In this document: positions 6,925 through 61,700 of the stretch, piece by piece
Position numbering within the stretch: the stretch's first letter is position 1
How the letters are laid out: every line of letters starts with the position of its first letter
Origin: Candidatus Gastranaerophilales bacterium
GTDB taxonomy: Bacteria; Cyanobacteriota; Vampirovibrionia; Gastranaerophilales; Gastranaerophilaceae
NCBI GenBank assembly: GCA_944325835.1
Contig: CALVBO010000001.1
Coordinates: 124,001 to 188,000, forward strand
Reading direction: 5' to 3'
Length of the DNA stretch: 64,000 bases
Position numbers and translations under genes: made by a program
Notes under the pieces: model-generated
The model's database searches: none
The model's input: only the letters and a program-made list of their open reading frames with translations
What the model was told of the DNA's origin: nothing

Positions 6925-8134
6925 TATCTTTACGATATTTCATTCCTTCAAACGAAATAGCTGTAATTTCGTCTGAGAGCTTCTGTTTTGCTCTGGAGAG
7001 TGTACTTGCGCTTGCAGTAAGAGTACCGACAGCACCTTTTCGTGTTCCGGAATTGCCAACACACAAATTCAAATTGTCAGGTTCATCAAGCTTGTCTATA
7101 CCTTGAATTTCATTGCCCTCATAGCGTGAAAATATTGTTACAGAAACTGACGCCAGCGCGTTTGTTTTTATAACATCATAATCATCTGCGAAAACGCCCA
7201 TTGCACACGCTTCAAATAACGTAATCAGGTTTTCATCAATAGCATTTAACAGTACCTGCGCATCTGCATCTTCAACGTATGGAGAAATACTTTCTACAAA
7301 GACCTTCTCATCCGTTTTAACGCACTTAAAACCTAAAATACCCATAAATGGATGTCCGGAACTTTCTAACGCGTTTAGAAGGCGTATAACAGTGTCTTTC
7401 ATTATTTTGAATTCATCATCTTTTGTAATTTTAAAATCCGGCATACTAGCAGCAGAGCCTTTTGTCAAATATCCGCCTTCAAATCCGTCAGAAAACTTGT
7501 ATGTAGAAACAACCCCGAGCGGCAATGCTTTGTATCCGTCCGTAACCACGTAATAAGTAAATCTGTGGCCGGAAATATATTCTTCAACAAGAATTTTATT
7601 TTCAGCACGGAAAAATAAATCATTAATAGCAATATTCGCCACAGAAATAGTCGGGCATGCAAATAAATCCTGTTCATTTAATGGTTCCGGAGTTTTAATA
7701 ACCAGCGGGAAGTTCGCATTTTTTACATAATCCAGCGCGAGCTGCGCTTTTTCAAAAACACCGAATTTAGAGGTCGGAATTTTCAGTTTATAAAGAAATT
7801 TCTTAGTTGCAGCCTCATCAATTATTTGTTTTACACTTTCATATTCAGGAGCGAAAATCATCTGGCCGTTTGCGCTAAAAAAGCTTGCAATATCAGCTTT
7901 TATGGCATTTCTGGAAACCACAATTGTCAAATCAACAGAATTTTCCAGGACAAAGCTTAAAAGTTCTGCGACATTTTCGTCCCTTATATCAACCATCTTG
8001 ACATAATCCGGCATGCCGCCGCGAAATCCGGTTACAAAAATTTCACCGCAATTGTCTAAACCGTGCAATTTTTTGACAAGGGCTACAGAGGCAATATTAT
8101 TCCCAACTATTAAAATATTCTTTTTATTTTCCAT
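6914..8134 (-). CDS. Divergent PurD-like (GAR synthetase) ATP-grasp protein
   Basis: 406 residues with the layout of phosphoribosylamine-glycine ligase: an N-terminal Rossmann strand (ILIVGNNIASVALVKKL), an ATP-grasp middle (FPLVIKTP, VEEYISGHRFTYYVV, GILGFKCV) and the PurD C-terminal strand ASVSVTIFSRYEG. The signature loops are altered. The N-terminal GGREHA-type loop is absent, and the FNxRFGDPE metal/ATP motif reads as ESISPYVEDADAQ. It may be a paralogue with a changed substrate rather than the housekeeping PurD. Confidence 0.6.
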   Translation of the reverse strand: MENKKNILIVGNNIASVALVKKLHGLDNCGEIFVTGFRGGMPDYVKMVDIRDENVAELLSFVLENSVDLTIVVSRNAIKADIASFFSANGQMIFAPEYESVKQIIDEAATKKFLYKLKIPTSKFGVFEKAQLALDYVKNANFPLVIKTPEPLNEQDLFACPTISVANIAINDLFFRAENKILVEEYISGHRFTYYVVTDGYKALPLGVVSTYKFSDGFEGGYLTKGSAASMPDFKITKDDEFKIMKDTVIRLLNALESSGHPFMGILGFKCVKTDEKVFVESISPYVEDADAQVLLNAIDENLITLFEACAMGVFADDYDVIKTNALASVSVTIFSRYEGNEIQGIDKLDEPDNLNLCVGNSGTRKGAVGTLTASASTLSRAKQKLSDEITAISFEGMKYRKDIIS

Positions 8135-9514: not shown

Positions 9515-9523
9515 GCCTCTATC

Positions 9524-10879
9524 CTAAAACATTAATCTAAAGAGTAAGAATCTCTTATTCAATTTTTCAGAGAATTTTCTCAAATTTGCAGTCGTGACTG
9601 TTGCATCCTCAATCATTGCCTGAATTTCTGTTTTATTCTCGCAATTTACGGAATTCAACGGTGCCAGAGCGGTTGAAATATCAAGCATTGCATTATTAAG
9701 ATTTTTAATTGAAGTCGTGATGCTACCTTTAAGCTTTTCATCTTTAGTCATAGTTTCTACAAACTCACTAATTTCATTCATATTTGAAACAATTGCCCTA
9801 AAGTCAGACGCCAGCTTTTGCGAGGATTCGTCATCACCGAATAAAATATCAATATTTTTGGAAAGAGAATTAAACGAATTTGCCGTTTCAATAACGGTTT
9901 TCTTGACATCCTCATCCTTCAAAAGAGTATTCATGTTTTCTGAAAGTTGATGAAAATCTTTTGCGGCCGATTCAGTAAGTGCCATAAGATTATCAAGATC
10001 CTCTTCCATAAACGAGTTCAATTTCGCCAGAACTTCACTCGCATCAGCCGTCAAAGAATTAATATTCCCGACAGACTTTTGAAGTTCTGTAATAAGTTCA
10101 TTGGAAAGCAGTTCATTAACCTTTTTATTGGTTTCTGTAAGCCCTTCTGCGGCACGATATTGCCATTCCATGAAGTCTGCTATTCTCATTGGTTCAATTA
10201 TCGTATACGGCGACTCCTGACTTGGATAAGGCAATACAACATCATCAAGTGTTGATATCAACATTGAATTAGGCTGATTTCTCTCAACCAGCAGCTTGCC
10301 TTTCATAAATTCCGGCAGAATCAGTCCCGGTAAATCGACAATATAATCAACTTTATATGCATAATTTGAAGTCACAATTTCGCGCAGATAATACGGAACC
10401 AGATCGCTTGAAACTACATTAATGTCCTTAATTTTACCGACGTCATAAACTTTATCATCCAACTTCATCTTAACAACATCATCTTTATAAAGAATATCCT
10501 TTGTTACCATTGGAAGATAAACCGTTCTGGTTTTAGGCGGAGTAATTTCAAGGAAGAGTTCACCTATAAGCCCCGACTGTTGAATTGAAAGTGCTGAAGC
10601 CTTTGGAATATCAATATCAGAATCTGTAATTACAAACTTAACTTTAACATAATTTTCATCTTCAGTAGTAACAGGTTCAATTTCCTCAACCTGCCCGACA
10701 CGCATCCCCATCATCTGAACTGCCGCACCCGGACGCATGCCGTTTACATCTTTAAATCGAACTTCTACCCTGTCAGCATTGGAAAATGTCCGGCCTTTAA
10801 CTCTTATTACTACACCAAGAAGCAATACCAGCGATATAAAAGCAAGAAGTCCTACCTTAAAAGATGATGAAAATTTCAT
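9524..10879 (-). CDS. MCE/MlaD-family lipid transport protein
   Basis: 451 residues. One N-terminal transmembrane helix (about 8-26) precedes an MCE domain (VRFKDVNGMRPGAAVQMMGM and VGQVEEIEP). A long, mostly helical C-terminal part of about 200 residues resembles needle-type MCE proteins. It probably forms a periplasmic channel with an MlaE/MlaF-type ABC transporter moving phospholipid between membranes; those partners are not in the window. Upstream of lpxK in one transcript. Confidence 0.88.
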   Translation of the reverse strand: MKFSSSFKVGLLAFISLVLLLGVVIRVKGRTFSNADRVEVRFKDVNGMRPGAAVQMMGMRVGQVEEIEPVTTEDENYVKVKFVITDSDIDIPKASALSIQQSGLIGELFLEITPPKTRTVYLPMVTKDILYKDDVVKMKLDDKVYDVGKIKDINVVSSDLVPYYLREIVTSNYAYKVDYIVDLPGLILPEFMKGKLLVERNQPNSMLISTLDDVVLPYPSQESPYTIIEPMRIADFMEWQYRAAEGLTETNKKVNELLSNELITELQKSVGNINSLTADASEVLAKLNSFMEEDLDNLMALTESAAKDFHQLSENMNTLLKDEDVKKTVIETANSFNSLSKNIDILFGDDESSQKLASDFRAIVSNMNEISEFVETMTKDEKLKGSITTSIKNLNNAMLDISTALAPLNSVNCENKTEIQAMIEDATVTTANLRKFSEKLNKRFLLFRLMF

Positions 10880-12987: not shown

Positions 12988-13062
12988 GCGGGGGTAATTC
13001 AGTGGTAGAATGCCTCCTTGCCAAGGAGGATGTCGCGAGTTCGAGCCTCGTCTCCCGCTCCA
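12988..13062 (+). tRNA. tRNA-Gly (GCC), 3' part supplied by the prophage
   Basis: 75 bases with complete cloverleaf: acceptor GCGGGGG/CTCCCGC, anticodon arm CCTCC TTGCCAA GGAGG giving GCC, T-loop GTTCGAGCC, discriminator T and encoded CCA. The bases from 13018 onward form the attachment core, so the functional 3' half was replaced by phage DNA at integration. Confidence 0.97.
13018..13059 (+). other. attL core (42 bp)
   Basis: Identical over 42 bases to 51274-51315; covers the anticodon-loop to acceptor half of tRNA-Gly. First mismatches are C versus T on the left and C versus A on the right. Confidence 0.95.
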
Positions 13063-13063
13063 T

Positions 13064-14218
13064 TTAAATGCTAGTATCCACGTACCTTTTAGGGAAGTGG
13101 ATAATTTTTTTATTTAGGCTATTTTCTTTCATGCTCATATTTTGCTCATATTTTTTTGAAAAAATATTCCCGATTTTCTCTGTCGCTCGCGCTACCATAT
13201 CACTGTTATTTCGTGCATATATATTTAAGGTTGTTTCACTTTTGGCATGACCTGCCTGATTCTGTGCAAACTTTACACTTAAACCGCTCGATAATACCAT
13301 ATCTATATATGAACCGCGCAAATCATGAAGCCGTACTCGTTTATTTATTTCGCATAACTCTAACAGTGGATACCAAAAACGCTGCCGCAAATTGTGAGGG
13401 TTTAAATAATTACCAGCTCGGTTAGGAAAAAGTATAGGGTTTTCTTTATCTGACCTCCTTATATGCTCCCGCAAAACTCCGGCCAGTTCGTCAAATATGT
13501 ATATCTTCCTATTTGAACTCTCTGTTTTCGTTTTGTGTACAAGCCGATTTTTTGTAAACTGTTTATTAATTAATAACGATTTTTCATCAAAATTAAAATC
13601 ATCTTTTGTTAACGCAAATATTTCACCTTCCCGTGCGCCGGTACCAACAAAAGTATAAAGCAACGCATAATATTCTGGATACGAGCGCAGGCATTCCTCT
13701 AACACCATTTTTATTTCTTCTATAGTTAAATGGTTTATATCTGCCTTCGGTAACTCCGCCTTTTCAACTTTATCAAATACGTTATAATCAAGAAGGCCAT
13801 GCTTGATACAATAATTAACCGCTGCTTTTGCCATCTTTAAACTATCTTGCGCAACATAAGCACTGGATTTTTCTATATCATCAAATAAACCCTGCCAGGT
13901 TATTGAATCAATTTTATCATATCGAATATCTTCGACAGCTTGAAAATATTTCTTATAATACCTTTCATAAGTCTCAATTGTATTTATAGCATACTTTTTT
14001 CTGGCTTTATCAAGATAATGTTTAAAAATCTGGCCATAAGTTATATTTTGGTTATCCGGATTTACATTCTCAAACTTGCTTAAATGTCTTTTTGCCTCTT
14101 TAATCGTGTCGTAAATCCCTGAGGTATGCTGCTTACCAAAAATATCATAGTAAGTTATTGTGTATTTTACGACTTCGCCCTTTTTAGTCTTTATCCTTTT
14201 TTTGCTTATTCCTGCCAT
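13064..14218 (-). CDS. int: Tyrosine-recombinase integrase
   Basis: 384 residues. An N-terminal arm-binding beta domain (about 1-50) precedes a SAM-like core-binding domain (about 60-150) and the catalytic domain. Catalytic residues are visible: Arg in GTGAREGE, Lys in KTKTESSNRKI, His and Arg in LHDLRGSY, His in AGHAKSETT, and Tyr in TLNIYAR. It ends two bases from the tRNA-Gly CCA. Its 3' end also contains the tRNA terminator and a putative arm site. Confidence 0.96.
   Translation of the reverse strand: MAGISKKRIKTKKGEVVKYTITYYDIFGKQHTSGIYDTIKEAKRHLSKFENVNPDNQNITYGQIFKHYLDKARKKYAINTIETYERYYKKYFQAVEDIRYDKIDSITWQGLFDDIEKSSAYVAQDSLKMAKAAVNYCIKHGLLDYNVFDKVEKAELPKADINHLTIEEIKMVLEECLRSYPEYYALLYTFVGTGAREGEIFALTKDDFNFDEKSLLINKQFTKNRLVHKTKTESSNRKIYIFDELAGVLREHIRRSDKENPILFPNRAGNYLNPHNLRQRFWYPLLELCEINKRVRLHDLRGSYIDMVLSSGLSVKFAQNQAGHAKSETTLNIYARNNSDMVARATEKIGNIFSKKYEQNMSMKENSLNKKIIHFPKRYVDTSI
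13075..13111 (+). terminator. Phage-supplied terminator for tRNA-Gly inside the int 3' end
   Basis: Stem TATCCAC (13075-13081) with GTGGATA (13097-13103), followed by ATTTTTTTATTT. It lies antisense to the last integrase codons. Confidence 0.75.
13133..13163 (+). repeat. Putative integrase arm-type site, left copy
   Basis: A 31-bp sequence with two tandem GCTCATATTT-like units. It recurs with one mismatch at 51119-51149 in the same orientation near attR, so the two copies would flank the core in attP. Binding by Int is inferred. Confidence 0.6.
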
Positions 14219-17325: not shown

Positions 17326-18564
17326 TTATGCGATTGCTGTAATTTCTAAACTTTCAGGGTCAATTCCGTTTAAGCGAACTTTTAACCCCTCTAAGATTGT
17401 TTGTGGTTGTTTACTGGAATTCGGATTATAGCAGCATTCCAGATGATAAATTCCTGGTACTGTCTGGTTTTTCATATACAAGTACGGAAGATAAGCGTAA
17501 GTCGTAAATATCGCTGACATATCTATCAGCTTATACTCTGATTTTTTATACCATTCAAAATTGCGGGTTCCTTCATGATTTTCCCAGGTATCCATAAGTT
17601 TGCCTAATGACACCATACGTTCAATACCATACTTACGTATGAATTCAGCCTTAATATCTGCATTTTGCTCTTTCTTGAAAAAATCAATATCTAAATTGCT
17701 AGCAGGCGTTTCAGCTAGATATTGAGGAACTCTAACGCCATTTAAAGCCCACACACTAAATCCATCAGCGTATTTTACAGCAGGTTTGCCATCTGCGTGT
17801 AATCGTGTTCCAATTTGATTTATTTCAACAGGCTTCTGGGAAATTATACAAACACTATCTAATGGAAAAATAGGACCGAATTTTACTGTATTTACCCACC
17901 AATCATAATTAGATTTTACGTTGTCATAGCTTATATTTAAGACTTCGGTGAAATAACTATAAAAAGCCCAAATATTGGCATCCAAACTGCCGTAAAAATA
18001 AGGGGAGATAAATGCAATTAATTCGGAATCCCACACGGAATCCCACACGGAATCCCTCACGGAATCCCTCACGGAAGCCCTCACGGAATCCCACACGGAA
18101 TCCCACACGGAAGCCCACACGGAATCCCTCACGGAAGCACTCACGGAAGCCCACACGGAATCCCACACGGAAGCCCACACGGAATCACTCACGGAATCCC
18201 ACACGGAATCCCACACGGAATCCCTCACGGAATCCCTCACGGAATCCCTCACGGAATCCCTCACGGAATCCCTCACGGAATCCCACACGGAATCCCTCAC
18301 GGAAGCCGAAATATTCTTGATTGGGAATTTATAACCTTTTTCTGCAAACGCAAACATGTTAACAATTATCCAAGCGGAAAGTGGACTTTCCGCAATAATT
18401 ACCGGGACCTTTGGTTTTTTACGTATGTTCTCATAAAAGTAATCGCTCCATTGCTGCGCATCTTCTTTTGTAAATCTTTCAGTTGATAAACCCAATTTAA
18501 TCCATTTATCGCGATATATTGCCATTTGCTCTTTTTGTTCTTTTGTTAATTTTGTAATCATCAT
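17326..18564 (-). CDS. DUF6745-like protein with a tetrapeptide-repeat insert
   Basis: 412 residues. A helical N-terminal part (KEQMAIYRDKWIKLGLSTE) leads into about 24 tandem tetrapeptides of form x(D/A)SV at about residues 85-180, where x is Arg, Trp or Ser. A conserved-looking C-terminal domain follows (NQIGTRLHADGKPAVKYADG, TRNFEWYKKSEYKLIDM). The C-terminal part resembles proteins I associate with DUF6745, of unknown function. The repeat has a strict 12-bp period and should be length-variable. Two ATGs at the start; either could be used. Confidence 0.6.
   Translation of the reverse strand: MMITKLTKEQKEQMAIYRDKWIKLGLSTERFTKEDAQQWSDYFYENIRKKPKVPVIIAESPLSAWIIVNMFAFAEKGYKFPIKNISASVRDSVWDSVRDSVRDSVRDSVRDSVRDSVWDSVWDSVSDSVWASVWDSVWASVSASVRDSVWASVWDSVWDSVRASVRDSVRDSVWDSVWDSELIAFISPYFYGSLDANIWAFYSYFTEVLNISYDNVKSNYDWWVNTVKFGPIFPLDSVCIISQKPVEINQIGTRLHADGKPAVKYADGFSVWALNGVRVPQYLAETPASNLDIDFFKKEQNADIKAEFIRKYGIERMVSLGKLMDTWENHEGTRNFEWYKKSEYKLIDMSAIFTTYAYLPYLYMKNQTVPGIYHLECCYNPNSSKQPQTILEGLKVRLNGIDPESLEITAIA
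18024..18309 (-). repeat. 12-bp coding minisatellite
   Basis: About 24 copies of a 12-base unit (GTG-TGG/AGG/AGT-GAT/GCT-TCC on the coding strand). Units differ almost only in the second and third codons, giving VWDS, VRDS, VWAS, VRAS, VSAS and VSDS. Confidence 0.9.
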
Positions 18565-21576: not shown

Positions 21577-22377
21577 TTAATCAATCAATGCCGACATCAA
21601 AATAGGTTTTGTGATTACCTTTGTTTCTTTGCACCAGTCGCAGCGGCCGCAGCGTTCGGGCATTATCTCACCTGATTTTAAAAGCTTGATACGTTCAACG
21701 CCGCACTTAGCACCCACCAATGCGCCGTCAAGTTCCGGCTGCGTAATTTGAATTAACTCAATAGCGGTCGTCTTGGTTTTATCTGCTACCGCTATAAAAC
21801 AAGGTAGTTGCTTGCCGGTGTTAAGTTCAACCACTTTTTGATAAATCGCTAATTGAAAATCATAGCCATAATTTTCTATAAAATTCAGATTACGGCCAAC
21901 CCCGGGAACATAAAATCTTTCGTAAATATCTTTGACTACTTTTAAATCAACGATAGCCTTATCCTTTAAGTAGCTGTCCATTTTGATTTTCCAATCAACA
22001 CCGAAAAGATTAGCGGTCATTATGGTTTGTTTTTCTCCCGAAAGATACTGCATAAATTTACGGTCTTTTTCGATTCTTGATATGATGTTTTCGGCTTGAA
22101 CATATTCAGCCTTGAGAGAACCGTCTTTTTTGAAGATATCGGGATTATTTTCTTTAAACCTTTCAAGAGTGCCCTCCACATAACTATCAACATAAGAACC
22201 TACTAACAATGCTGTTGTAGGTTCTTCTTTGTATTCTCCATTCAGTTTGGCAATCGCTTTAGCTTCGCAACCCTTACGCCCGAGGGTTCCAAAAAAGTCT
22301 TTATACTGACTTACACTTAAATACTTCCGATTAATCTCCGGCGTGTAGTAATTGCTGTTGTTCAACTTCTGCTTCAT
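21577..22377 (-). CDS. PD-(D/E)XK exonuclease, RecE-like (DUF3799)
   Basis: 266 residues. Start MKQKLNNSNYYTPEINRKYL and LSVSQYKDF match the DUF3799 group. Nuclease motifs appear as KMDSYLKDKAIVDLKVVKD. A Cys cluster, RCGRCDWCKETK, near residue 245 may bind a metal or Fe-S cluster as in related nucleases. It would resect double-stranded ends for the RecT-like annealase, with which it overlaps by 47 bases. Confidence 0.75.
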   Translation of the reverse strand: MKQKLNNSNYYTPEINRKYLSVSQYKDFFGTLGRKGCEAKAIAKLNGEYKEEPTTALLVGSYVDSYVEGTLERFKENNPDIFKKDGSLKAEYVQAENIISRIEKDRKFMQYLSGEKQTIMTANLFGVDWKIKMDSYLKDKAIVDLKVVKDIYERFYVPGVGRNLNFIENYGYDFQLAIYQKVVELNTGKQLPCFIAVADKTKTTAIELIQITQPELDGALVGAKCGVERIKLLKSGEIMPERCGRCDWCKETKVITKPILMSALID

Positions 22378-23014
22378 TTTTTACATCCTGTTTTTCTTGG
22401 CTGTCGACCTGTTCCGGTTCTGCAAATACATCTACAATTTCACTTTCTTCAATTGGTTTTATGTCTGTGGCTTCATCTTCTGTTAGCATTCCGTTCATTA
22501 TTTCAGGACAATAAAGACGCCCGAAAAAAGCAGCAGCACGGTATCTTAACATCAACTCCGGCATTGTCTTCCATTTTGAGCCGCTTTTACCAAGCCAACC
22601 TTCATTTTTCGCCATTTCCATTGTGATTAGTGGGCCTACAAGCTTATCGCCTGTAGTTTTTTCTACCGCATAAGCTCTACATTTTGTACGGTTGGCATCC
22701 ATTTCAAATTTCAAACCACCGTTAAAACGTCCGCTTGCATTGATGCAAGATATAATGAATGTACTTGCCCAGCTCGGTTTCCCCTGAACAATGTACATAT
22801 TTTGCATTACTAAAAACGGACTTAATTTTAGACGGTTACTAAGTTCTAATGCAATGATACAGTTCTCAGGTTTATTTTTATAAACCGCCGGTATCATATC
22901 GCTTTTTGCGAGTTGCTCCGCCATTTTCATAGCGTTGTTGAAATTTTCCTCACCACTGAATACTGATAAAGTCGCATCAGATTGCGGCATTGTTGTTAAT
23001 TGTGCTTCTGCCAT
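22331..23014 (-). CDS. recT: RecT-family single-strand annealing protein
   Basis: 227 residues. Core motif KPENCIIALELSNRLKLSPF, then MQNMYIVQGKPSWASTFI and INASGRFNGG match the RecT/Redbeta group. Acidic tail. It anneals complementary strands during phage recombination. Confidence 0.75.
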   Translation of the reverse strand: MAEAQLTTMPQSDATLSVFSGEENFNNAMKMAEQLAKSDMIPAVYKNKPENCIIALELSNRLKLSPFLVMQNMYIVQGKPSWASTFIISCINASGRFNGGLKFEMDANRTKCRAYAVEKTTGDKLVGPLITMEMAKNEGWLGKSGSKWKTMPELMLRYRAAAFFGRLYCPEIMNGMLTEDEATDIKPIEESEIVDVFAEPEQVDSQEKQDVKNEAEVEQQQLLHAGD

Positions 23015-23261: not shown

Positions 23262-23369
23262 TCAGCCGACCAGCCAATAATGTTGATATCCATAGGCTAT
23301 AAGCCCTATGCAAAACGTAAATAGTATCATTCCGGCGATAATTTCGCCGATAGTGTTTTCATCATTCAT
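23262..23369 (-). CDS. Small single-pass membrane protein
   Basis: 35 residues. AGGAGAAAAAACA precedes ATG 23369. One hydrophobic helix spans residues 9-28 (EIIAGMILFTFCIGLIAYGY). No family recognised. Confidence 0.45.
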   Translation of the reverse strand: MNDENTIGEIIAGMILFTFCIGLIAYGYQHYWLVG

Positions 23370-23604
23370 TGTTTTTTCTCCTATATAAAGGCGGAGATAG
23401 CAAGCTATGACAACTAGAAAGGATGTTGTGTAATACAATTCTTGCTATCCCTTAATACTTCAAAGAAAAGGCGATGTGGAGTATTTGGGGTTTACATCGC
23501 CAAGAGTTTAGTTTTGGTAAAAAATTAAAAACAGCCCGCCTATTGGTCGATGACGGGCAGAGAAAGGAGACCACCAATAAGTGGCTGTTAATCTTTTGAA
23601 ACTT

Positions 23605-23631
23605 AAAAAAATCGCAGAAAATTCTGCGATG
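23605..23631 (-). terminator. Intrinsic terminator before the recT operon
   Basis: Stem ATCGCAGAA/TTCTGCGAT (23612-23620 with 23623-23631), followed in the leftward direction by seven T. It would stop early transcripts unless antiterminated. Confidence 0.8.
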
Positions 23632-23771
23632 TGATGTGTGTCTTAAATGGATGACATATTAAACCTGTAGCCGGCGCAGGTGCAAGCATCGCAGGTAATT
23701 AATTAACTAGGTATTTAACAACAAATGTACAACAGGTAAATGTATATTTATCTGCGCCGGATGCAAGTTTA

Positions 23772-23846
23772 AAAAAACTCTTATCACGGCACCACTTTTT
23801 TAAATAGTATCCGGTAATACTTCTGGTGCCGGGTAAAAGTTTTTTG
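23772..23846. terminator. Long imperfect bidirectional terminator hairpin
   Basis: Arms of about 23 bases containing GGCACCA/TGGTGCC (23788 and 23824), flanked by A and T runs so that each strand ends in T-rich sequence. Inner stem GTAT/ATAC. Confidence 0.65.
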
Positions 23847-24110
23847 TTGCTTTTTTACACTATCATTGCATGTCGGGTTTCGTGCGCTACCGCCCAAGAG
23901 CTATATTTATAGTGGAGCCCGCTTCTCACGGTTAGCTAATAGCCACTTAAATTTTTAGATGCCGGGTTGTTTCCCTGGCGGGCTTACGCCCAAATTTATT
24001 AAAGATTAATTTTTCATTAATCAGTAATCGCATGCCTTAAAACCTATGGTATACATGGATTACTGAACATTTCTGATGTTCTAGTCCTAAAGAGAGGAGG
24101 AATTAGGGAT

Positions 24111-24386
24111 ATGTCAATCAAAATGATAAGTTATGACTTGCATAAACCGGGTCAAAACTATGACAATCTTATTGATGCAATCAAATCTTACAATGGTTAT
24201 TGCAAAATCAATGAGAGTGATTGGTTAATTTCTACGGCAGATAGCTGCAGCAACATAAGGGATTTTTTGAAAAAATTTATTGATACAAATGATACCTTAT
24301 TTGTTGCTGAACTATCTTCAAAACCCGGTTGGTGGGCATCTTATAACCTTAGAAAAGGTGCCGTAGATTGGCTTAATAGTTTGTAA
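24111..24386 (+). CDS. Cas2/VapD-like (SinR-type) small protein
   Basis: 91 residues, with GAGAGGAGGAATT before the ATG. The start MISYDLHKPGQNYDNLIDAI matches the ferredoxin-like first strand of Cas2/VapD-fold proteins. It continues with ESDWLISTADSCSNI, TNDTLFVAELS and a Trp-rich WASYNLRKGAVDWL end, as in stand-alone phage and plasmid relatives. There is no CRISPR array or cas1, so it is not an adaptation gene. RNase activity is possible. Opposite in strand to the early operon and abutting the structured block. Confidence 0.65.
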   Translation: MSIKMISYDLHKPGQNYDNLIDAIKSYNGYCKINESDWLISTADSCSNIRDFLKKFIDTNDTLFVAELSSKPGWWASYNLRKGAVDWLNSL

Positions 24387-24558
24387 ACAATACTAAAAAG
24401 CCTTCTTTTTTATAGTAGCTTTCGCAGCTATGTTCTTTACCGTCAAAGCTGCTTGTTACTATTTTTTTACCGTCCAAAGATTGAACTTTAAAAACTTCTG
24501 CGGACGGATTTTCTTTTAGGATGTCCTTAAGCTGTAATAAGACTTGATTTATATCCAT
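24373..24558 (-). CDS. First small gene of the early operon, unknown
   Basis: 61 residues, with GGAGAG before ATG 24558. Mixed alpha/beta (VLLQLKDILKENPSAEVFKV). Overlaps the Cas2-like gene tail to tail by 14 bases, so the two transcripts are antisense there. No family recognised. Confidence 0.5.
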   Translation of the reverse strand: MDINQVLLQLKDILKENPSAEVFKVQSLDGKKIVTSSFDGKEHSCESYYKKEGFLVLFTNY

Positions 24559-24699
24559 TATTCTCTCCTTTCTATTAAACTTTCAATGTGCTCTCAATTT
24601 TCCACAGCAAAAGTAAGCCGGTTTGACGGCTTCACTTAGACCGGTTGTTAAGTTTTGCAACCCGCCTGTGTGATTTTCTTTATTTACCCTTTTGCCTTA

Positions 24700-24790
24700 T
24701 TACCGGTGGGTTTCGTACGCTTTTCCGTTTCGCTTTTTTCACTGGTGCGACCAGCCGCACTACTTCCCACCTTGAAATTATTGCCGGTTT
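24700..24790 (-). promoter_or_regulatory. Structured leader element downstream of the early promoter
   Basis: On the leftward transcript GGTGGG and CCCACC enclose a GTGCG/CGCAC hairpin and the motif AGCGTACGAAACCC. That motif recurs as AGCGCACGAAACCC at 23875-23888 in the structured block. A cis-acting antitermination or binding element is possible; function is inferred only from position. Confidence 0.4.
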
Positions 24791-24848
24791 AGAATACAAT
24801 AGTTAAATCTCTATATTATTCTTGTCGCATTCCATTTCCGACATTTTT

Positions 24849-24877
24849 AGTATAACAGAATCAAATTAAATTGTCAA
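24849..24877 (-). promoter_or_regulatory. Early leftward promoter
   Basis: TTGACA (24877-24872), exactly 17 bases, TATACT (24854-24849) on the minus strand. It lies between the repressor gene and the early genes, where a CI-type repressor would bind. Confidence 0.8.
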
Positions 24878-24933: not shown

Positions 24934-25626
24934 ATGAATATTAGTGAACTGCAAAAAGAGTTAACAGAACGTAACATTAATATACCTGCGTACAAAATTG
25001 CCGAAATTTGGGGAATGGATGAAACAAGTTTTAGTAAAAAAAAGAAAAATGGGACAGCAATCAAATTAAAAAATATAGAACAACTTGAGCAGGCCTTGAA
25101 AATTAATTTGACTAAAAGAGATTTACCCAAAGAAGCCCCTATGACCAAAGATGAGATTTTAAAGGAACTTGAAGAAATTAAAGAACATCTAATAAATACC
25201 ACCAAACCGGTGAGTGGCACCATTAACTTAACTTACAGACCTGATGTTTCTTTATCTGCAGGTTACGGCATTGAAGTTTATAATGAAGCCGCGCAAACAT
25301 TTGCTATTGATTCAAGATTGTTAACAACAGAAAGAGGAAACAAGATAAATCCTAAATATTGTGAGATTGTGGCTGTTGCCGGTAATTCGATGTACCCTGA
25401 ATATAGAGAAGGTGACAGGGTAATTATTAATAAAGCTGATACAACTTTAACAGATGGGCAAATTTATGCCATTCGATACCGCGGGCAATGTTTTGTAAAA
25501 GAAATAAATTTATTACCTGATAAAATAAAATGTATTTCCTTGAACAAGGAATATGATCCGTTCTATATCAATGAAAACGAAGATTTCGTAGTAATTGGTA
25601 GAATAATCCCGAGAATAAGATTATGA
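24934..25626 (+). CDS. S24-family (CI/LexA-type) phage repressor
   Basis: 230 residues. The N-terminal 60 residues form a divergent HTH. The C-terminal S24 peptidase has Ser152 in GNSMYPE and Lys189 in QCFVKE as the dyad. SAG-YG at 108-112 is a likely self-cleavage site (Ala109-Gly110). It would hold the early promoter off and be inactivated by RecA after DNA damage. Divergent from the early operon. Confidence 0.92.
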   Translation: MNISELQKELTERNINIPAYKIAEIWGMDETSFSKKKKNGTAIKLKNIEQLEQALKINLTKRDLPKEAPMTKDEILKELEEIKEHLINTTKPVSGTINLTYRPDVSLSAGYGIEVYNEAAQTFAIDSRLLTTERGNKINPKYCEIVAVAGNSMYPEYREGDRVIINKADTTLTDGQIYAIRYRGQCFVKEINLLPDKIKCISLNKEYDPFYINENEDFVVIGRIIPRIRL

Positions 25627-25638
25627 GGTACCTTTATA

Positions 25639-26064
25639 TTAAGCCCCATGGTCATATGATGAAAAATCCCAATCAATCCACAAAACATAACATATAGCTT
25701 TATATCTCCATCCAACAATTCTGGCTTTGTTCGAAACTCTAAAAATAGTAACATTTTTTACATTATTATAAAAGTTTGTTTTTGGCAACGCAACTTTTAG
25801 TTTTCTCAAACTGGTTAATCCAACGATTTCAACGCCAGTACGTTTTTTATCACCATTAAAATTATCCCAAGGTGTTTTAGAATAATTATGTAAACTTTGT
25901 AATAAAGAGCATTTTAAACTCTCATTAGATTTTGCGCTATTAAGACTATAATCAGTATTATTAACAATATACTGAAAACTAAATGCTGGACAGTCTTTAT
26001 CACCAGTAATCGCTTTTAAACTTTGTGACTCTTCATACTTTTGTGATTTTATTTTACCTGACAT
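25639..26064 (-). CDS. Putative toxin of a Panacea-type toxin-antitoxin pair
   Basis: 141 residues. Its C-terminus, VGWRYKAICYVLWIDWDFSS, then YDHG, resembles small RelE-like or otherwise uncharacterised toxins that accompany Panacea antitoxins. It starts two bases after the Panacea gene stops, the usual antitoxin-first order. Toxicity is inferred. Confidence 0.6.
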   Translation of the reverse strand: MSGKIKSQKYEESQSLKAITGDKDCPAFSFQYIVNNTDYSLNSAKSNESLKCSLLQSLHNYSKTPWDNFNGDKKRTGVEIVGLTSLRKLKVALPKTNFYNNVKNVTIFRVSNKARIVGWRYKAICYVLWIDWDFSSYDHGA

Positions 26065-26066
26065 AA

Positions 26067-26546
26067 TTAATTAATTTGAGTTTTAAAAAAAGCTAACATT
26101 TTACAATCAGTAATAATATCATTTCTCTTAGTTTCTAGCCAAGGGATTTCATCATGAGTCATATTTCTTAATTTCCAAGCAGAAAATTGTCCATATACTT
26201 GATAAACTTCATCTAAAATTTCCATTATTTCAGGGAATTTTTGTAATTCGTGATATTCCAGATCTTCTGTTCTTGTAATGGCAGCTCGTCCATTTTGTTT
26301 ATATTTATCATATAAACATCTAACAACAGGGCCATGTTCCCAAGCTTCAATGGGTTCATCAAAAAGTTTTTTCCCTGTTAAAGCCATAACAAAGCCTTGC
26401 GCATAATATACTAATTTTTGCAATTTTAAATTAGATATACAATCTTCTGTTTCAATATCTAATTTATCAAGAAAATAATTTGCGACTTCTTCTACAGGTA
26501 TACTATAACTTTCTATTTTGTTTTGTTTATCCATCATTGCAATCAT
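26067..26546 (-). CDS. Panacea (SocA/DUF4065)-domain antitoxin
   Basis: 159 residues, nearly all one Panacea domain: ISNLKLQKLVYYAQGFVMAL, LFDEPIEAWEHGPVVRCLY and KLRNMTHDEIPW. This domain neutralises unrelated toxins encoded next to it, and such prophage pairs can block other phages. It sits beside the repressor, the usual place for genes active in the lysogen. Confidence 0.82.
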   Translation of the reverse strand: MIAMMDKQNKIESYSIPVEEVANYFLDKLDIETEDCISNLKLQKLVYYAQGFVMALTGKKLFDEPIEAWEHGPVVRCLYDKYKQNGRAAITRTEDLEYHELQKFPEIMEILDEVYQVYGQFSAWKLRNMTHDEIPWLETKRNDIITDCKMLAFFKTQIN

Positions 26547-52769: not shown

Positions 52770-55700
52770 TTATTTGATAAGTGATATATTATCATTTTCT
52801 GTATCAAATGGTCTTGCAACTGAATCAATTTGCTGTTCAAGTTCTTGTACAGATTGCATTTCCATTTCTTGTTGTTTTTGGAGTTTTGCCTGAGCTATTG
52901 AATCCTCAATAAGAATATTCATATATAGAATATTGTTAGCTGTTGCCTCATCAAGGTTTACAAATTCTGCTCCGGCGCGGTGCTTAGTAGCTGATACAAC
53001 TTTAATATCTGTGTCAATTACAATATCACCGTATGTAATCTGAACTGGAACCACATCGCCAACATTCAACGTTTCGTTATGTGTTACCGCAACACCGCCT
53101 CTTGAGATATCAATTACAGATTCTACTTGATCATTTGGTGCCAGAGTCAATGGAATGCTGTTACCGCCGACATCAAAACGCATTGTTTGACGTTTATCCA
53201 TTGCTTCTATGTTATGATCCATAGTTCTTTGTTTATATGTATATTGATATCCGACTTCCGGAAGAGGACTAGGGTCATCCGGATCAGGATCCGGTGTAGG
53301 ATCCGGGTCAGGTGTTGGATCAGGATCAGGATCTGGATCTGGATCTGGATCTGGGTCTGGATCTGGATCAGGGTCTGGATCTGGATCTGGATCTGGGTCT
53401 GGATCTGGGTCTGGATCTGGATCAGGATCTGGGTCTGGATCTGGATCAGGGTCTGGATCTGGGTCTGGATCTGGGTCTGGATCTGGATCAGGATCTGGGT
53501 CTGGATCAGGGTCTGGATCTGGATCTGGGTCTGGGTTAGGATCTTCAATTTCTAACGGAGTTGCGTCAACTATACCGTCATCAGGGTCAACATTTGTTGA
53601 ACCGTCAGTGAAATCGCCATCACCTTCCGGATAATAGTAGTTTCTTTCATCCTTGTCGTGACCGATATCTGTTACATCATCAGGTCTTACTGCCTTATGA
53701 GTTAATGTAAGGTCTTCACCTTCAAATGGTTTTGTTGCATCGTTTTCGATTTTAGAGAAACCGTCTTTGTTAATCTTAGATTGTACACCGTTAGCGTATG
53801 CTCTATCTGCAACAACTGTTAAGTTGCCTCCATTTTGCAGACGACCTTCGTCAATTACAACTCTGGAATCTGCCCAGTGGTTAACACCGTCAATCATTGT
53901 ATTGTCAAGTCTTGTTCTTGTATTGATATCAAGAGCTTTGATTGTAGCATTGTGAGGTGTAATATCACCGTTAGGTCCATAGTAATCTACCGGAGTTTCA
54001 GGTACAGAACCTAATTTGTGAATTTGAAGTGCTGCACCGCGGGTTACAACATTTATATCGTTTGCTGCAGTAATTTCATCAATGATTGTATTACCTGAGA
54101 ACTCAATATTTGCAGAACCTTCTCTTGAGATTATTGTGCCAGCATTTGTATCATAAGCATCATCCAGGCCTTTCAAATTCATATCTTTGATAGACAAGAA
54201 ATCAACTTCTTTATCAGTATTTCTTTGGTTAAATGTAACAGCTTTATCAGATGTACCGATTGTATTGCTTGCGATTAAGGAAATTGCCTCACCTTCAACG
54301 TTTGCAACTGTATCATCTTTTGCTGCATTTAGAATTGATGCGCTTGTATCAGTTGTTTCACCGGCCAACAAGAGAACATCACCTTTTGCATGAACCTGAT
54401 TAATATTCAAATCAGCTTCTTTACTTGCAATATTGATAACCAAATTATCTTTATTGCCATCGGCTCTTAATGTATTTGCTGTTACCGTACCAGCAACTTC
54501 AACATTAATTGATTTTGTTAAATCTCTTGAAGTTGGTAAAATTCCAGAGTCAACATATCCGCCGATTGTACCGTTAATAGCTTTAGCGCTGAAATCACCG
54601 CCCGCTTTAACAATTGTATTTGTTGTACCTGCATTCAGAATGCTTCCGTTATATGAATATAAGTCAACATTTCTTCCTGCGGTCAGGTTATTTGAATTAT
54701 CAGTTGTTGTAGTACCGATAACAATATTATTATCTTTAGCATCTACAATGATATCATTAGCAGCTGTCACGTGACCTTTTGCTTGGAAATCTTCTGTACC
54801 GAAGCTTTGGACACGAACATCGCCTTTATCTGCGGTAACATTAGCTTCATCACTGATAATAATGCCTTTACCAATGTTTTGAATACTTACATCACCGGAA
54901 GTTACCTGTCCGTCAATTTGGATATCACCAGATCTATTATTGATATAGATAATACCTTCGTTATCAATTGTAGAAGTGTCGGCGATTGTCAAACCGGTTC
55001 CGTCATTTGTGATTTCTGCATCTGCACCGCCGATTATATCGCCCGAAACAAGTGTTGCACCTGTTCCGTGGTTTCTGATTACAAGGTTACCGGCATTGTC
55101 AATAGTACCACTCATTGTAAGATCTGTACCATTTTCACTGTTGATAATGTTAGTTTTAAGCTCATTATCAATCGTACCGCTAACTGTTAATGCACCTGTA
55201 CCATTATTTGTAACTATCAGGTTGCCTTCATTATCAACATCACCGGTTAGTGACAGGTCAGTTCCTTCATTTGTAATTGTGGTGTTGCCACCATTTATAA
55301 TATCAGCACCTACAGCCAATGCGCCGGTTCCGTTATTTGTAATTTGTAATGAGGTTGCGTTGGTGATTGTACCATTTACTGTTGCATTTCCAGCATTTTC
55401 GCTATTAACAATGTTAGTCCAATCTTTATTGTCAATTGCACCGGACATTGTTAAGTCACCTGCATTATTCGTGATTTTTAAACCACCCTGGTTAGTAATA
55501 TTGCTTGCTTCAGTGAATGTCAATCCGTCCGCACCGTTATTAGTAACCATCATATTGCCTGAATTATTAATAACACCAGCCATTGTTAAGCCTGAACCGT
55601 TATTTTCAAATTCAGAGTTGCCGCCGTTAGTAATTTCGCCGTCAACAAGCATAGCACCTGTTCCGTTATTTCTTACCAACAGAGCATCAGCATTATTGAT

Positions 55701-58700
55701 TACACCGTTAAGTGTCATATTTTTAGCAGTTTCGGAGTTAATAATATTGGTAATAGCATCGTTATCAACTGTACCATTCATTAATAATGAACCTGTACCG
55801 TTATTTGTGATAATCAAATTACCGGTATTATCAATTGTACCGCCAACAGTTAAATCAGTTCCGGCATTTGTGATTTCTGTATTGGCACCGTTAGTGATAT
55901 CTGCACCAACATTCAATGCACCTTTACCGTCATTAATTATGTGTAAAGAATTTGTATTATTTATTGTGCCATTTACTGTTGCGTTATTTCCGCTGTTCAA
56001 AATTTGTGTTTGAACTCCGGTATTGGTTAACGCGCCGGCTAAAGACATATCTCCAGCATTATTATCTAATACTAACATGCCGTTTGCAGAAATGCTGCTG
56101 TCCTCGGTCGTTGTGAAACCGCCTGTACCATTATTCGTGATTTCTAAGTTATTAGAGTCGTTAATTGTTCCCGAGATGTTTAGTGCTGAACCGTTATTTA
56201 TAATTTCAGCATCCGCACCGTTGGTTATCGCACCACTTACATCCAATGCTCCGGTTCCATTATTTTGAACCAATAAATCACCGGTATTATTCAATGTACC
56301 ACTTATGCTCAATGCTTCGCCGGCATTTGTGATTTCTGCATCGCCACCGTTGAGTACTTCACCAGTTAGTGACAAATCGCCGTTGCCTTCATTTCTTACT
56401 ACTAAGTTACCGGCATTATCTAACTTACCGCCTAAAGTCAAATCTGTTGCTGTTTCGCCGTTAATAATATTAGTTATGCCTTCATTGTCCACAGTTGAAG
56501 TCATTGTTAATGCGCCGGTTCCGTTATTCGTTACTATAAGGTTGCCTTCATTATCCAGACTTCCACCAACTGATAAATCGGTTCCTGAATTTGTAATAGT
56601 TGTATTATCACCGTTTACAATATCCGCACCAACAGATAAGAAACCTATTCCATCATTGATGATATGTAATGAATTTGCATTATTAATTGTACCATTTACG
56701 GTTGCGTTGTTACCGCTGTTCAATATCTGAGTTTGAACTCCGGTATTGGTTAACGCGCCGGCTAAAGACATATCACCGGCATTATTATCTAATACTAACA
56801 TGCCATTTGCAGATATATCGCTTGTGTCGGTTGTTGTTAAACCGCCTTCACCATTATTCGTTACTTGAAGGTTATTTCCATTGTCTATCACGCCGGAAAT
56901 ATTCAACGCACTGCCGTTATTCGTTACTTCTGCATCTTTTCCGTTCGTTACGCTGCCGGAGATATCTAACACGCCGGCGCCGTTATTTTCTACTAGCAAG
57001 TCGCCACTATTATTCAACGTGCCGCCTATAGATAAGTCCTTACCACCATTCGTTATCTCTGCGTCACCACCATTGATTACGTCACCCGTTAATGACAGGT
57101 CGCCGCTGCCGGCATTTCTTACCACTAAATTGCCCGCATTATCTAATCTGCCGCCAACCGTCAATTCTGTTCCGTTGGCACTATTAATTATGTTCGTTAT
57201 CCCTTCATTATCTACGGTTGAAGTCATTGTTAATGCGCCGATGCCGTTATTACTTACAAGCAGGTTACCTGCATTATCTATACTGCCGCTAACGCTCAAG
57301 TCAGTTGCGGTTTCACCATTCGTTATCGTGGTATCGCCACCGTTTGTTATGCCAGCACCTACACTTAATGCGCCTGTGCCGTCATTGATTATATGTAACG
57401 AATCTGCATTCGTTATCGTGCCATTTACGGTCGCATTATTTCCGCTGTTCAGAATTTGCGTTTGTGTTCCGTCGTTTGACAACAAGCCGCCAAGGTTCAT
57501 ATCACCTTTCGTATTGTTTACTATCAAAAGACCATTACTATTTCTTATTTCACTCTTTTCTGTTGTCGTTAAACCGCCCAAACCGTTATTCGTGATTTGT
57601 AAGTTATTCGCATTCGCTATTACGCCCGAAATATTCAACGCATTTCCGTTATTCGTTAGTTCGGCTTCTCCATTATTCGTTATTGTGCCGCTTACGTCTA
57701 AATCGCCACGGCCATTATTTTCTACAAGCAAGTCGCCTGTATTATTTATTGTGCCGCTTATAGACAAGTCGTTACCAGCATTCGTTATTTCACTATTTGC
57801 TCCGCTTATTACGTCACCGGTTACGGACAGGTTGCCTGTTCCGTTATTTCTTACTACTAAATCTTTCGCGGTATTTAATGTACCACCTAACGTTAAATCT
57901 GTTCCGGTTGCACCGTTAATAATGTTCGTTATTCCTTCATTATCTACTGTTCCGGACATATTAAGTGCTCCGCTGCCGTTATTACTTACAAGCAGGTTGC
58001 CTTCATTATCTATTGTGCCAGATACGCTCAAATCTGTTCCCGCATTCGTTATCTCGGTTTGACCGCCATTCGTTATGTCGGCACCTACGCTTAATGCGCC
58101 GGTTCCGTCATTTTCTATATGTAACGAATCTTTATTATTTATTGTGCCGTTTACGGTTGCATTATTTCCGCTGTTCAATATCTGAGTTTGAACTCCGGTA
58201 TTGGTTAACGCGCCGGCTAACAACATGTCTCCGGCATTATTATCTAATACTAACATGCCATTTGCAGAAATGTTGCTGTCTTCAGTCGTTGTAAAACCGC
58301 CTTCGCCATTATTTGTGATTGCTAAATTTTGTGAATCATTAATTGTTCCGGAGATATTTAATGCTGTACCGTTATTCGTAATTTCTGCATCTAAGCCGTT
58401 CGTTACGCTGCCGGATATATCCAACGCACCTGTACCGTTGTTTTGAACCAGAAGGTCGCCACTATTATCCAGTGTGCCGCTTATGCTTAATGCTTTTCCA
58501 GCATTCGTTATCTCGGTTTGACCGCCGTTAATTACGTCACCGGTTAGTGACAGGTCGCCCGTTCCGTTATTTCTTACTACCAGATTTTCGGTATTATTTA
58601 ACTTGCCACCCAACGTTAAGTCGGTTGCGGTTTCGCCATTTTGAATATCGGTTGAGCCGCCATTCGTTATATCGCCGCTTAACGTCAACGAGCCGCTTCC

Positions 58701-61700
58701 GTTATTAGTTACCTTTAACGTGTCACCGTTTTTAATTACGCCGGATAATAATGCATCCGTTCCTTCATTCGTTACGGTTATATCACCATTATTATTCGTT
58801 ATGTCGCCGTCTACGGTCATTGTTGTGCCGCTATTGCTCAATAAGATATTTCTATCATTTTCTATTGTGCTATCGACAAGCATTGTGCCGCTGCCAGCAT
58901 TCTCTATTCTTAAGTCGTTTCCGTTATCTATTGTTCCTGTTACGCTTAAGTTCGTTCCTTCATTTCTTATTTGGGCATTATTGCCATTCGTTATTCCGGC
59001 ACCTACGCTCAAGGAGCCTTTGCCTTCATTCAATATTGCCAAATCTTTTGTATTATTTATTGTGCCATTTACGGTCGCGTCTTGACCTTTATTCAAGATT
59101 CGGGTCAATATTCCAGTATTCGTTACGCTGCCGTTCATATCCAGGCTGCCGGCATTATTCGTTATATACAGCAACCCGCCATTTTCTATACGGCTTTCTT
59201 CGGTTGTTGTTAAACCTCCTTCACCATTATTCGTTACTTGAAGGTTATTTCCATTGTCTATCACGCCGGAAATATTCAACGCACTGCCGTTATTCGTTAC
59301 TTCTGCATCTTTTCCGTTCGTTACGCTGCCGGAGATATCTAACACGCCGGCGCCGTTATTTTCTACTAGCAAGTCGCCACTATTATTCAACGTGCCGCCT
59401 ATAGATAAGTCCTTACCACCATTCGTTATCTCTGCGTCACCACCATTGATTACGTCACCCGTTAATGACAGGTCGCCGCTGCCGGCATTTCTTACCACTA
59501 AATTGCCCGCATTATCTAATCTGCCGCCAACCGTCAATTCTGTTCCGTTGGCACTATTAATTATGTTCGTTATCCCTTCATTATCTACGGTTGAAGTCAT
59601 TGTTAATGCGCCGATGCCGTTATTACTTACTATTAGGTTGCCGCCGTTTTCTATTACTCCGCCAACGGAAAGATTTACGCCTTCATTAGTAATAGTAGTA
59701 TTTTTAGTATTATCAATATCGGCATTTACAACCAGGTCAGCATTTTTATTATAAATTACAGTATTACCGCCGTTAGTTATATCAGCAGTAACGTTCATGC
59801 CTTGAGTACCCGTATTTTTAAGTTCTAAATACTGATCATTATTAATCGTTCCACCAATATTAGCAGAAGTTCCGGAATTTGCAATCATAGCTTCTGTACC
59901 TTTATTGGTAACAGTACCAGCCATATTTAAAATTCCGGCAGTATTTTTAATATATAAATTACCGTCATTAGTAATTGAGCTTCCGGCTTCAAAATTCATA
60001 CCATTTTTTGCATTGTTGGTAATAAATAAATTATTGCCGTTTGTAATTGAACCGGTTTGGGTATATTTATCACCATTATTGGTAATAGTTGCATCATTAC
60101 CGTTTTTAACAGTACCGGAAATCAATAACGCACCGGTTCCGTCATTTTTGATAAATAAATTTTTAGCGTTATCAATTACGCCTGAGATAGTAGCTGTAGT
60201 ACCGCCAGCGTTATTGTTTATTTGTAAACGGGAACCGTTATTATCAATGTTACCGCCAACATTCAATGCTCCGGCATTATTTTCAATATCAAACATACCG
60301 CCGTTGGTTATATCAGCAGTATTTGCGATTGTTAAACCATTTGAACCGTTAGTATGGGTAACATTCAAATAACCGTCATTATCAATTGTACCTGAAACCT
60401 TCAGTCCGCTGCCGCTATTTGAAATATAAGTATCTCCGCCGTTATCAATTGTGCCACCGACATTCAAACTGCCAGAGCCGGTATTATGAATTGATAATCT
60501 TTCAGAGTTATTAATCGTACCGGATAAGTTTGCAGAGGTACCGCTGTTTTTAATTTCAGTAACAGAACCGGTGTTTGTAATATTACCGGCAATATTCAAA
60601 ATACCTTTCTGGTTATCAACTTTAATAAATCCGTTTGCATTGTCAATATCCGCGTTAGAAGTGATTTCCATACCGCCATTGCCAGTATTTCTGAGAGTTA
60701 AGTCGTTTCCGTTATCAATTCTGCCGCTAACTTTCATATTGGAGCCATTGTTGGTAAGAATAGTGTTGTTGCCGTTATAAATATTGCCGGAAACCAATAA
60801 AGCTCCTGTTCCAGAATTTGTAATAGTCAAATCAGTAGCGTTATCAATGTCACCAGAAACTGTTAATGCATCTCCGGTATTAACAAGTTGTGTAAATTTA
60901 CCGTCGTTGATGATGTTACCGGAAACTGTTAAATCACCGGCATTATTAGTCGCAGAAATAGTACCAACATTGTTGTTAATTTCACCATTAAGTGACATTC
61001 CTTGTGAACCTTCATTAGTAAGCTTAATATAACCGGTTCCGTCAGAAACGTTTTTCATGACACCGTCAAGTGACATTCCTTCATTTGGTCCGTATGAAGT
61101 AATAGAAATAACACCATTGTCATTTCTCAAAGAATTACCGGATGCACCAAGCCCGTCGATGTTAACAAGTTGTGAAAAGAGATCTTCGCCCATTGATAAG
61201 GAAGTAATTTTACCGTCATGGTCAACACCGGCAATAATACCGCCGCTTTCCAAAAGATTTACGCCCGCTGCATTAATATCAACGGTATCCCTAGAAATGA
61301 CTTTACCGGCAATGGTTACAATGCCGGTTCCTTGTGAATCTGTAAGAGTTCTTAAATCGCTATATAACGTCGGTGTCGATTGGATACTGCCTTTAAATTT
61401 TTCATAGTCCTCAGTTGTCGGAGTCATAACTTGTAACGAGCCGACATTCAATACGCCGCTGGCACCAACGACCATCCCCTCAGGCGAGATAAATACCAGA
61501 CCGCCATTAGAGAATGAACCGTCAGCTTTCAATGTGTTAACGATACCGTTAATATCAATTCTGTTGTTAACCAGGTTAACGAATTTAGCTATATCAGCAC
61601 CGTCATAGTTCATTATAAAATTAGCAATATCGCCTGCATCCAGCTTGAATTGATCATATTTTCTAAAACCTACATCCTTGTTTATACCGGTAGGGTCAAT

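Follow-up and report, generated by a model that had tools for sequence, protein, structure and literature searches.

The gene-free region at 23396-24065 probably belongs to the untranslated leader of an early-left (recT) operon, as its downstream part, with tandem terminators that would be overcome by boxA-type antitermination. It lies in a 64-kb stretch of DNA (64,000 nucleotides, here called the window) that contains a prophage: an integrase-like ORF (13064-14218; named by eye from the ORF) adjoins a tRNA-Gly gene (12988-13062), the only tRNA of the window. This reading draws support from the excess fold, the U-tracts on the minus strand only, and the S24 repressor and promoter that diverge beside the region. 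Several further lines of evidence favour it: a boxA match stands at the right place and on the right strand, relatives carry boxA and a covarying hairpin in the same slot, phage and rRNA boxA matrices find each other's sites, sense terminators outnumber antisense ones, the closest RecT relative (locus L073) has the same order of elements, and a further relative (L050) has boxA at the same place. The original prediction had offered, as one option, a recT-operon leader working by attenuation or antitermination, and this option is now favoured by orientation, synteny, the tandem minus-strand terminators and the boxA-like site. Terminator-antiterminator leaders as such are an already known kind.

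Prophage setting and neighbouring genes

The genes and signals flanking the region were as follows; Pfam and PHROGs profile searches covered 10 neighbour proteins.

24934-25626, plus strand: CI/LexA-type repressor (Peptidase_S24), divergent to the leader (Pfam/PHROGs profiles)
24849-24877, minus strand: early-left promoter candidate, TTGACA-17-TATACT with TG ahead of the second hexamer (11 of 12 matches; consensus match only)
24373-24558, minus strand: 61-aa ORF, first in the leader transcript (ORF list)
24111-24386, plus strand: 91-aa ORF (phrog_1090), antisense to the leader (ORF list, PHROGs)
23262-23369, minus strand: 35-aa membrane-peptide ORF, first past the leader (sequence)
22331-23014, minus strand: recT (Pfam/PHROGs)

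Since the region stands between the divergent repressor and promoter on one side and the recT series on the other, a minus-strand transcript starting at 24877-24849 must cross it to reach recT. The early operon after the leader runs in the order 35-aa peptide, 54-aa ORF, recT, DUF3799 exonuclease-like gene and DnaD-like gene, and its 35-aa ORF resembles a 33-aa ORF of a relative, L005 (one comparison only, 41% identity, E 8e-5). The 91-aa and 61-aa ORFs converge and overlap at their 3' ends (24111-24386, plus; 24373-24558, minus). The pair is kept together in L045 (1-1000; 68% and 50% identity), where a CRISPR-like array (35-nt repeats, 65-nt spacing) ends about 400 bp away. That the phrog_1090 protein might be Cas2-like was a guess, and profile searches of this protein gave nothing.

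Three other places in the window were noted in passing. A 412-aa ORF (17326-18564, minus) contains a long run of (W/R)DSV-type repeats and has a relative with the same repeats at L172 1794-2981. A SocA/Panacea-domain protein (26067-26546, minus) adjoins an ORF of phrog_8366 (25639-26064, minus), possibly as a Panacea-type toxin-antitoxin pair. A 3025-aa ORF (52770-61847, minus) has numerous internal repeats, ends in a DPDPDP tail and looks, by eye, like a giant surface-type protein.

Among named phages, no nucleotide relatives were found, and a single-sequence search for RecT in viral contigs gave none. TerL relatives were present at 19 loci, one of which (L022) has a boxA leader; the window-type RecT was absent from 14 searched records of these relatives, and a copy of the leader from 5 searched records. 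Short AT-rich matches were treated as chance.

Stems and terminators of the leader

The leader carries the following elements, given in the direction of the operon.

24573-24594, minus strand: boxA-like site AGAGCACATTGAAAGTTTAATA, immediately 5' of the Shine-Dalgarno of the 61-aa ORF (phage matrix)
23885-24008, minus strand: hairpin element with GGGC-GUAA-GCCC (23991-23980), GCC-A-GGG-6 nt-CCC-GGC (23979-23961) and AGUGG..CCACU (fold, model search)
23773-23845, minus strand: terminator T1, a long imperfect hairpin followed by GTTTTTTT (inverted repeat I2, terminator scan)
23659-23772, minus strand: 114-nt stem-loop TTAAAC..CCGGCGCAG / CTGCGCCGG..GTTTAA (inverted repeat I1 and fold)
23611-23630, minus strand: terminator T2, ATCGCAGAATTTTCTGCGAT followed by TTTTTT (strict terminator rule)
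23530-23589, minus strand: terminator T3, a long hairpin and U-tract, where an inner hairpin GCCCGUC/GGCGGGC either excludes the long one or takes part in a pseudoknot (strict rule, fold)
23470-23501, minus strand: terminator T4, GGCGATGT..ACATCGCC followed by TTTTCTTT (strict rule)
23396-23449, minus strand: final stem GATAGCAAG..CTTGCTATC, ahead of the first operon ORF (fold)

Overall, 23396-24065 is much more foldable than shuffled sequence on both strands (z -5.96 on plus and -6.42 on minus, with none of 60 shuffles per strand as stable). Slightly wider intervals gave -4.17 (plus) and -6.98 (minus) for 23380-24110 (20 shuffles per strand) and -4.47 (plus) and -8.94 (minus) for 23370-24110 (25 shuffles), while eight 500-nt control pieces of the window ranged from -3.18 to +0.54. 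Fold energy favours the minus strand without deciding between the two. Stem I1 (23659-23679/23752-23772, 21 nt, 86%), whose loop carries AGGT direct repeats, stem I2 (23773-23794/23824-23845), I4, I12, I19 and others are in the inverted-repeat list, and the folds add stems at 23396-23404/23441-23449, 23470-23477/23494-23501, 23611-23630 and 24022-24029/24058-24065 as well as two hairpins in 23961-23991. The dense RNA-like stems originally predicted here are thus confirmed by the repeat list, the folds and the shuffle scores of both strands. So is the lack of a supportable ORF: the region is without a credible gene, and among the listed ORFs of at least 40 aa none longer than 41 aa falls wholly inside it. 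One arm of stem 24022-24029/24058-24065, CAGTAATC, has five copies in the window compared to 1.7 expected and could be an operator-like, protein-binding dyad. The part of the leader between promoter and boxA (24573-24842, minus) is also structured (z -3.54) and includes a terminator-like hairpin at 24632-24615.

The pairings at 23531-23590 that were predicted to be unable to form together proved real at 23530-23589: on the minus strand, AACAGCC..GGCTGTT with TATTGGT..ACCAATA bars the nested GCCCGTC..GGCGGGC. A further alternative is an H-type pseudoknot, formed by TATTGGT/ACCAATA and GCCCGTC/GGCGGGC together. In the leader of L005 (about 7880-7920, minus), CTATCAAAG..CCCC-TTTGATAG-TGGGG has the same motif order B-C-B'-C' (pseudoknot or exclusive hairpins) as this part of the window.

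By the criterion of a G+C hairpin followed by a U-tract and co-oriented with the operon, 23370-24110 contains an intrinsic terminator array co-oriented with the recT operon, with three strict terminators in the sense (minus) direction, none in antisense, and the imperfect T1 in addition. Two intrinsic terminators had been claimed before; their presence stands and their number is revised to three strict and one imperfect, all on minus. T1 could serve both directions, because it runs into GTTTTTTT on the minus strand and into GTTGCTTTTTTAC on the plus strand. The U-tracts tell the strands apart, T2, T3 and T4 passing the rule on minus and none passing it on plus. The suggestion of a plus-strand RNA, drawn from a G-U pair, found no support: the GCCCGUC/GGCGGGC stem pairs fully on minus only, with a C-A mismatch on plus, and the G-U pairs of the folds (12 of 203 on minus, 19 of 198 on plus) settle nothing about the strand. 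Counted over 15 leaders (the window and 14 relatives), 17 terminators are sense and four antisense; at least one sense terminator is found in 10 of the 14 relatives and none, by the same rule, in the other four.

boxA sites and the covarying element of relatives

The boxA-like site was located with a phage matrix built from 12 phage leaders, the window site not being among them. At 19.3 bits, 24594-24573 (minus) tops the 127,958 positions of the window (next 9.7 bits), a score to be read beside random sequence: of 60 random sequences of 64 kb, one or more reached 20.9 bits. A matrix made only from three rRNA boxA sites gave the window site 10.2 bits, which is rank 10 in the window and rank 1 of 1452 leader positions. 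When the phage matrix was applied to two host rRNA operons, its top two matches in each were one upstream and one downstream of 16S (L163, 22.1 and 26.8 bits; L164, 22.1 and 24.6 bits, the downstream site of L164 lying in the 16S-23S spacer). No 16S rRNA was found in the window's own genome assembly. In the other direction, the rRNA matrix places the phage site first or second within the locus for 13 of the 14 relatives; only L068 departs from this, and it has other boxA copies nearby. Judged by these matches, the relatives' covarying element has an rRNA-type boxA as its conserved start. L050 has a 20.4-bit boxA at the equivalent place, directly ahead of a small ORF, and two more downstream; its 51-aa ORF and the 61-aa ORF of the window share position only, since BLASTP gave no alignment between them. 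A few matches of at least 14 bits fell outside leaders and rRNA operons (for example in L017, L028 and L034).

Relatives were sought in the same bacterial family, whose genomes may be those of gut Melainabacteria, in 288 or 383 genomes depending on the search. A RecT relative was present in two other genomes of 288, and the same arrangement of the 91-aa ORF in one of six other genomes carrying that ORF. These three loci have in common a stretch between repressor and early operon, on the operon strand, that starts like TGTACATTGACAATTTAATA and continues as a bulged hairpin. A covariance model of this element built from them (R1) had matches in 12 of 383 genomes. The window's own genome is not among these, and the window itself lacks the covarying element, its best weak match being 10.3 bits at 24026-23952 (E 0.17). 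Across the 12 sequences, 99% of 209 cells are paired and 15 of 22 pairs have changed on both sides (compensatory), in an alignment that was fitted to the structure and so favours the covariation score; none of 500 shuffles equalled this, and slid versions paired at most 44%. The 12 loci gave no Rfam match at E up to 0.1. Covariation in homologues, to which the original prediction had looked for support, is strong in the syntenic element of relatives; for the window's own stems the test covered only a short stretch in three sequences.

The setting of these leaders is similar to that of the window. The upstream divergent gene is a Peptidase_S24 protein at nine of ten tested loci and a Cro/C1-type HTH protein at one (L050 and L068 excluded from the count). 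The closest RecT relative, L073 (72% identity), has a promoter, a boxA-like site and two large-loop terminators in that order. Of the 14 relatives, 10 have a sense strand that folds better than its antisense counterpart, and four do not. Compared to the relatives, whose sense-strand z ranges from -0.98 to -4.62, the window leader (-8.94) is its own, more structured version, with z of about -6 to -9.

Proposed mechanism and alternative readings

The fold, the U-tract orientation, the boxA match, the synteny and the covariation in relatives are observations; from them we infer transcription of the leader, termination within it, NusB binding and antitermination. Starting at the 24877-24849 promoter, transcription would run along the leader on the minus strand to recT, and the three or four intrinsic terminators in series would stop leakage from the repressed prophage or incoming transcription. 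Once the repressor is lifted, RNA polymerase would cross the boxA-like site at 24594-24573, which, like the boxA of rRNA operons, would recruit NusB/S10 and modify the polymerase, and the modified polymerase would then pass the terminators and reach recT and the replication genes. The structured leader RNA would probably act as a boxB-like or put-like partner, a part that may fall to the covarying hairpin after boxA in relatives and perhaps to 24008-23885 in the window. For E. coli, PMC5725501 describes a Nus complex that, lacking N, prevents Rho-dependent termination. On that account boxA alone may not pass intrinsic terminators; if these are to be passed, structured RNA or a further phage protein would have to supply what boxA alone would not.

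An alternative explanation, which we consider rather unlikely, is direct control of recT, acting through translation, a protein or a small RNA: the serial terminators and the mutually exclusive pairings at 23530-23589 would exert it with unmodified polymerase, and the boxA-like site would govern how the 61-aa ORF is translated. The exclusive pairings themselves and the leaders from which a terminator is missing would fit such regulation, as would the position of boxA a few bases from the Shine-Dalgarno; PMC5725501 describes boxA sites no more than 50 bp away from start codons, which may regulate translation, and the placement at the 61-aa ORF is like theirs. However, the boxA of relatives lies far from any start codon and is joined to a covarying hairpin, and polymerase would have to get past serial terminators standing between the inducible promoter and the essential early genes. 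The boxA-type antitermination leader has points counting against it as well, namely the E. coli account of the Nus complex, the covarying element missing from the window, the random-sequence boxA score, the weak rRNA-matrix score of the window site, the four of 14 relatives without a sense terminator, the four of 14 without a better sense fold, and the ORF antisense in the leader.

Another possibility is that a short phage RNA of about 230 nt (24008 to T1) lies within the leader as a free-standing small RNA and is no leader device. This touches the hairpin element, for which a model was built from 24008-23885 of the window alone (R3). Its best non-self matches in 383 genomes were G380 (29.0 bits) and G042 (24.6 bits), which are singly not significant since their per-genome E values of 0.006 and 0.08 were obtained across 383 genomes. 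The G380 and G042 elements are, by their alignment, clearly homologous to each other (Smith-Waterman score 86, shuffles at most 34). A hairpin GS-CA-GRG-6 nt-CYC-(A/G)-SC, after which AUCYAAAAA follows, is common to window, G380 and G042 and shows compensatory changes. The window scored 41 with L172 (none of 300 shuffles as high) and 40 with L171 (five of 300 as high), and G380 and G042 are thus probable distant homologues of the element. No further copies were found in viral contigs, and 46 genomes of one genus gave only the self match and one 26-nt match. In G380 the element is sense and belongs to the early operon, where a relative of the window gene at 17326-18564 comes after it; in G042 late genes surround the element, which is antisense to them and has a terminator behind it. 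The mutual homology of the two elements and the terminated, antisense position in G042 would suit a small RNA; the lack of a sigma-70 promoter match ahead of the element in the window or G042, the non-significant single matches and the shuffles equalling the L171 score make it improbable.

It is highly improbable that the inverted repeats act at the DNA level, as a replication origin, protein-binding sites or a mobile-element relic. The repeats are long (the 114-nt one encloses AGGT direct repeats), but the region is single-copy in the genome, the U-tracts are on one strand only, and the syntenic element of relatives covaries as RNA. Iterons were rejected because the repeat motif is hardly above chance in the window (54 vs 40.6). 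A large ornate RNA of the GOLLD/ROOL kind, proposed originally and suggested by a phage-borne, long, structured and gene-free region in a prophage, has a negligible chance of being correct: no Rfam family reached its gathering score here, the window's sole match being the tRNA, a relaxed threshold gave nothing relevant at E up to 5, no tRNA adjoins the region, and its position and polarity are those of an operon leader. GOLLD and ROOL often lie near tRNA islands, according to PMC12286853.

Among known systems, rRNA-operon boxA antitermination (the NusB/S10/NusA/NusG/SuhB complex) has the same kind of boxA, the phage matrix finding both rRNA sites in two host operons. It differs in that the boxA of relatives stands in phage early leaders and is followed by a covarying hairpin and intrinsic terminators, and the match of the window is weaker and precedes a small ORF. 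Similar to lambda nut (boxA and boxB, with N protein), there is boxA and then a hairpin in an early-left operon, with a divergent CI-type repressor and downstream terminators; the phage leaders have a larger bulged hairpin and an rRNA-type boxA, no N-like arginine-rich ORF was recognised by eye, and the nut-like hairpin directly after boxA is present in relatives and missing in the window. The two-stem put RNA acts through the zinc-binding domain of RNA polymerase. HK022 put is likewise a structured RNA below PL, and such an RNA could let polymerase pass intrinsic terminators; according to PMC9378689, put suppresses intrinsic termination too and measures about 70 nt with two stem-loops, which sets it apart from the window leader, likened to it by description. 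canT of Tn916 is a structured cis RNA of 452 nt by which the terminators that insulate this mobile element are overridden (PMC11658703). It resembles the leader as a long structured cis RNA leading past insulating terminators, a likeness by description to another element in another host. The leader is not assigned to nut, put or canT.

We tentatively suggest, as a possibility we would not yet call likely, that temperate phages of this family have a new class of processive antitermination RNA, consisting of a captured rRNA-type boxA and a non-Rfam covarying bulged hairpin upstream of tandem, often large-loop terminators. The window would be a separate, extra-elaborate version, in which the hairpins of 24008-23885, common to two other elements, replace the standard one, with a put-/canT-like RNA in place of N. 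If so, phages of a barely studied gut lineage would open their early operon with an rRNA-type signal, and the covarying RNA element (12 of 383 genomes) is directly testable for processive antitermination. A search of one open-access library found no description of a boxA and hairpin leader of this type. A Faecalicatena orotica locus with a RecT relative (L079) has a 22.2-bit boxA match at 9522-9543 (plus) and a weak match to model R2 (16.4 bits, E 0.42); these matches may point to similar leaders outside this bacterial family.
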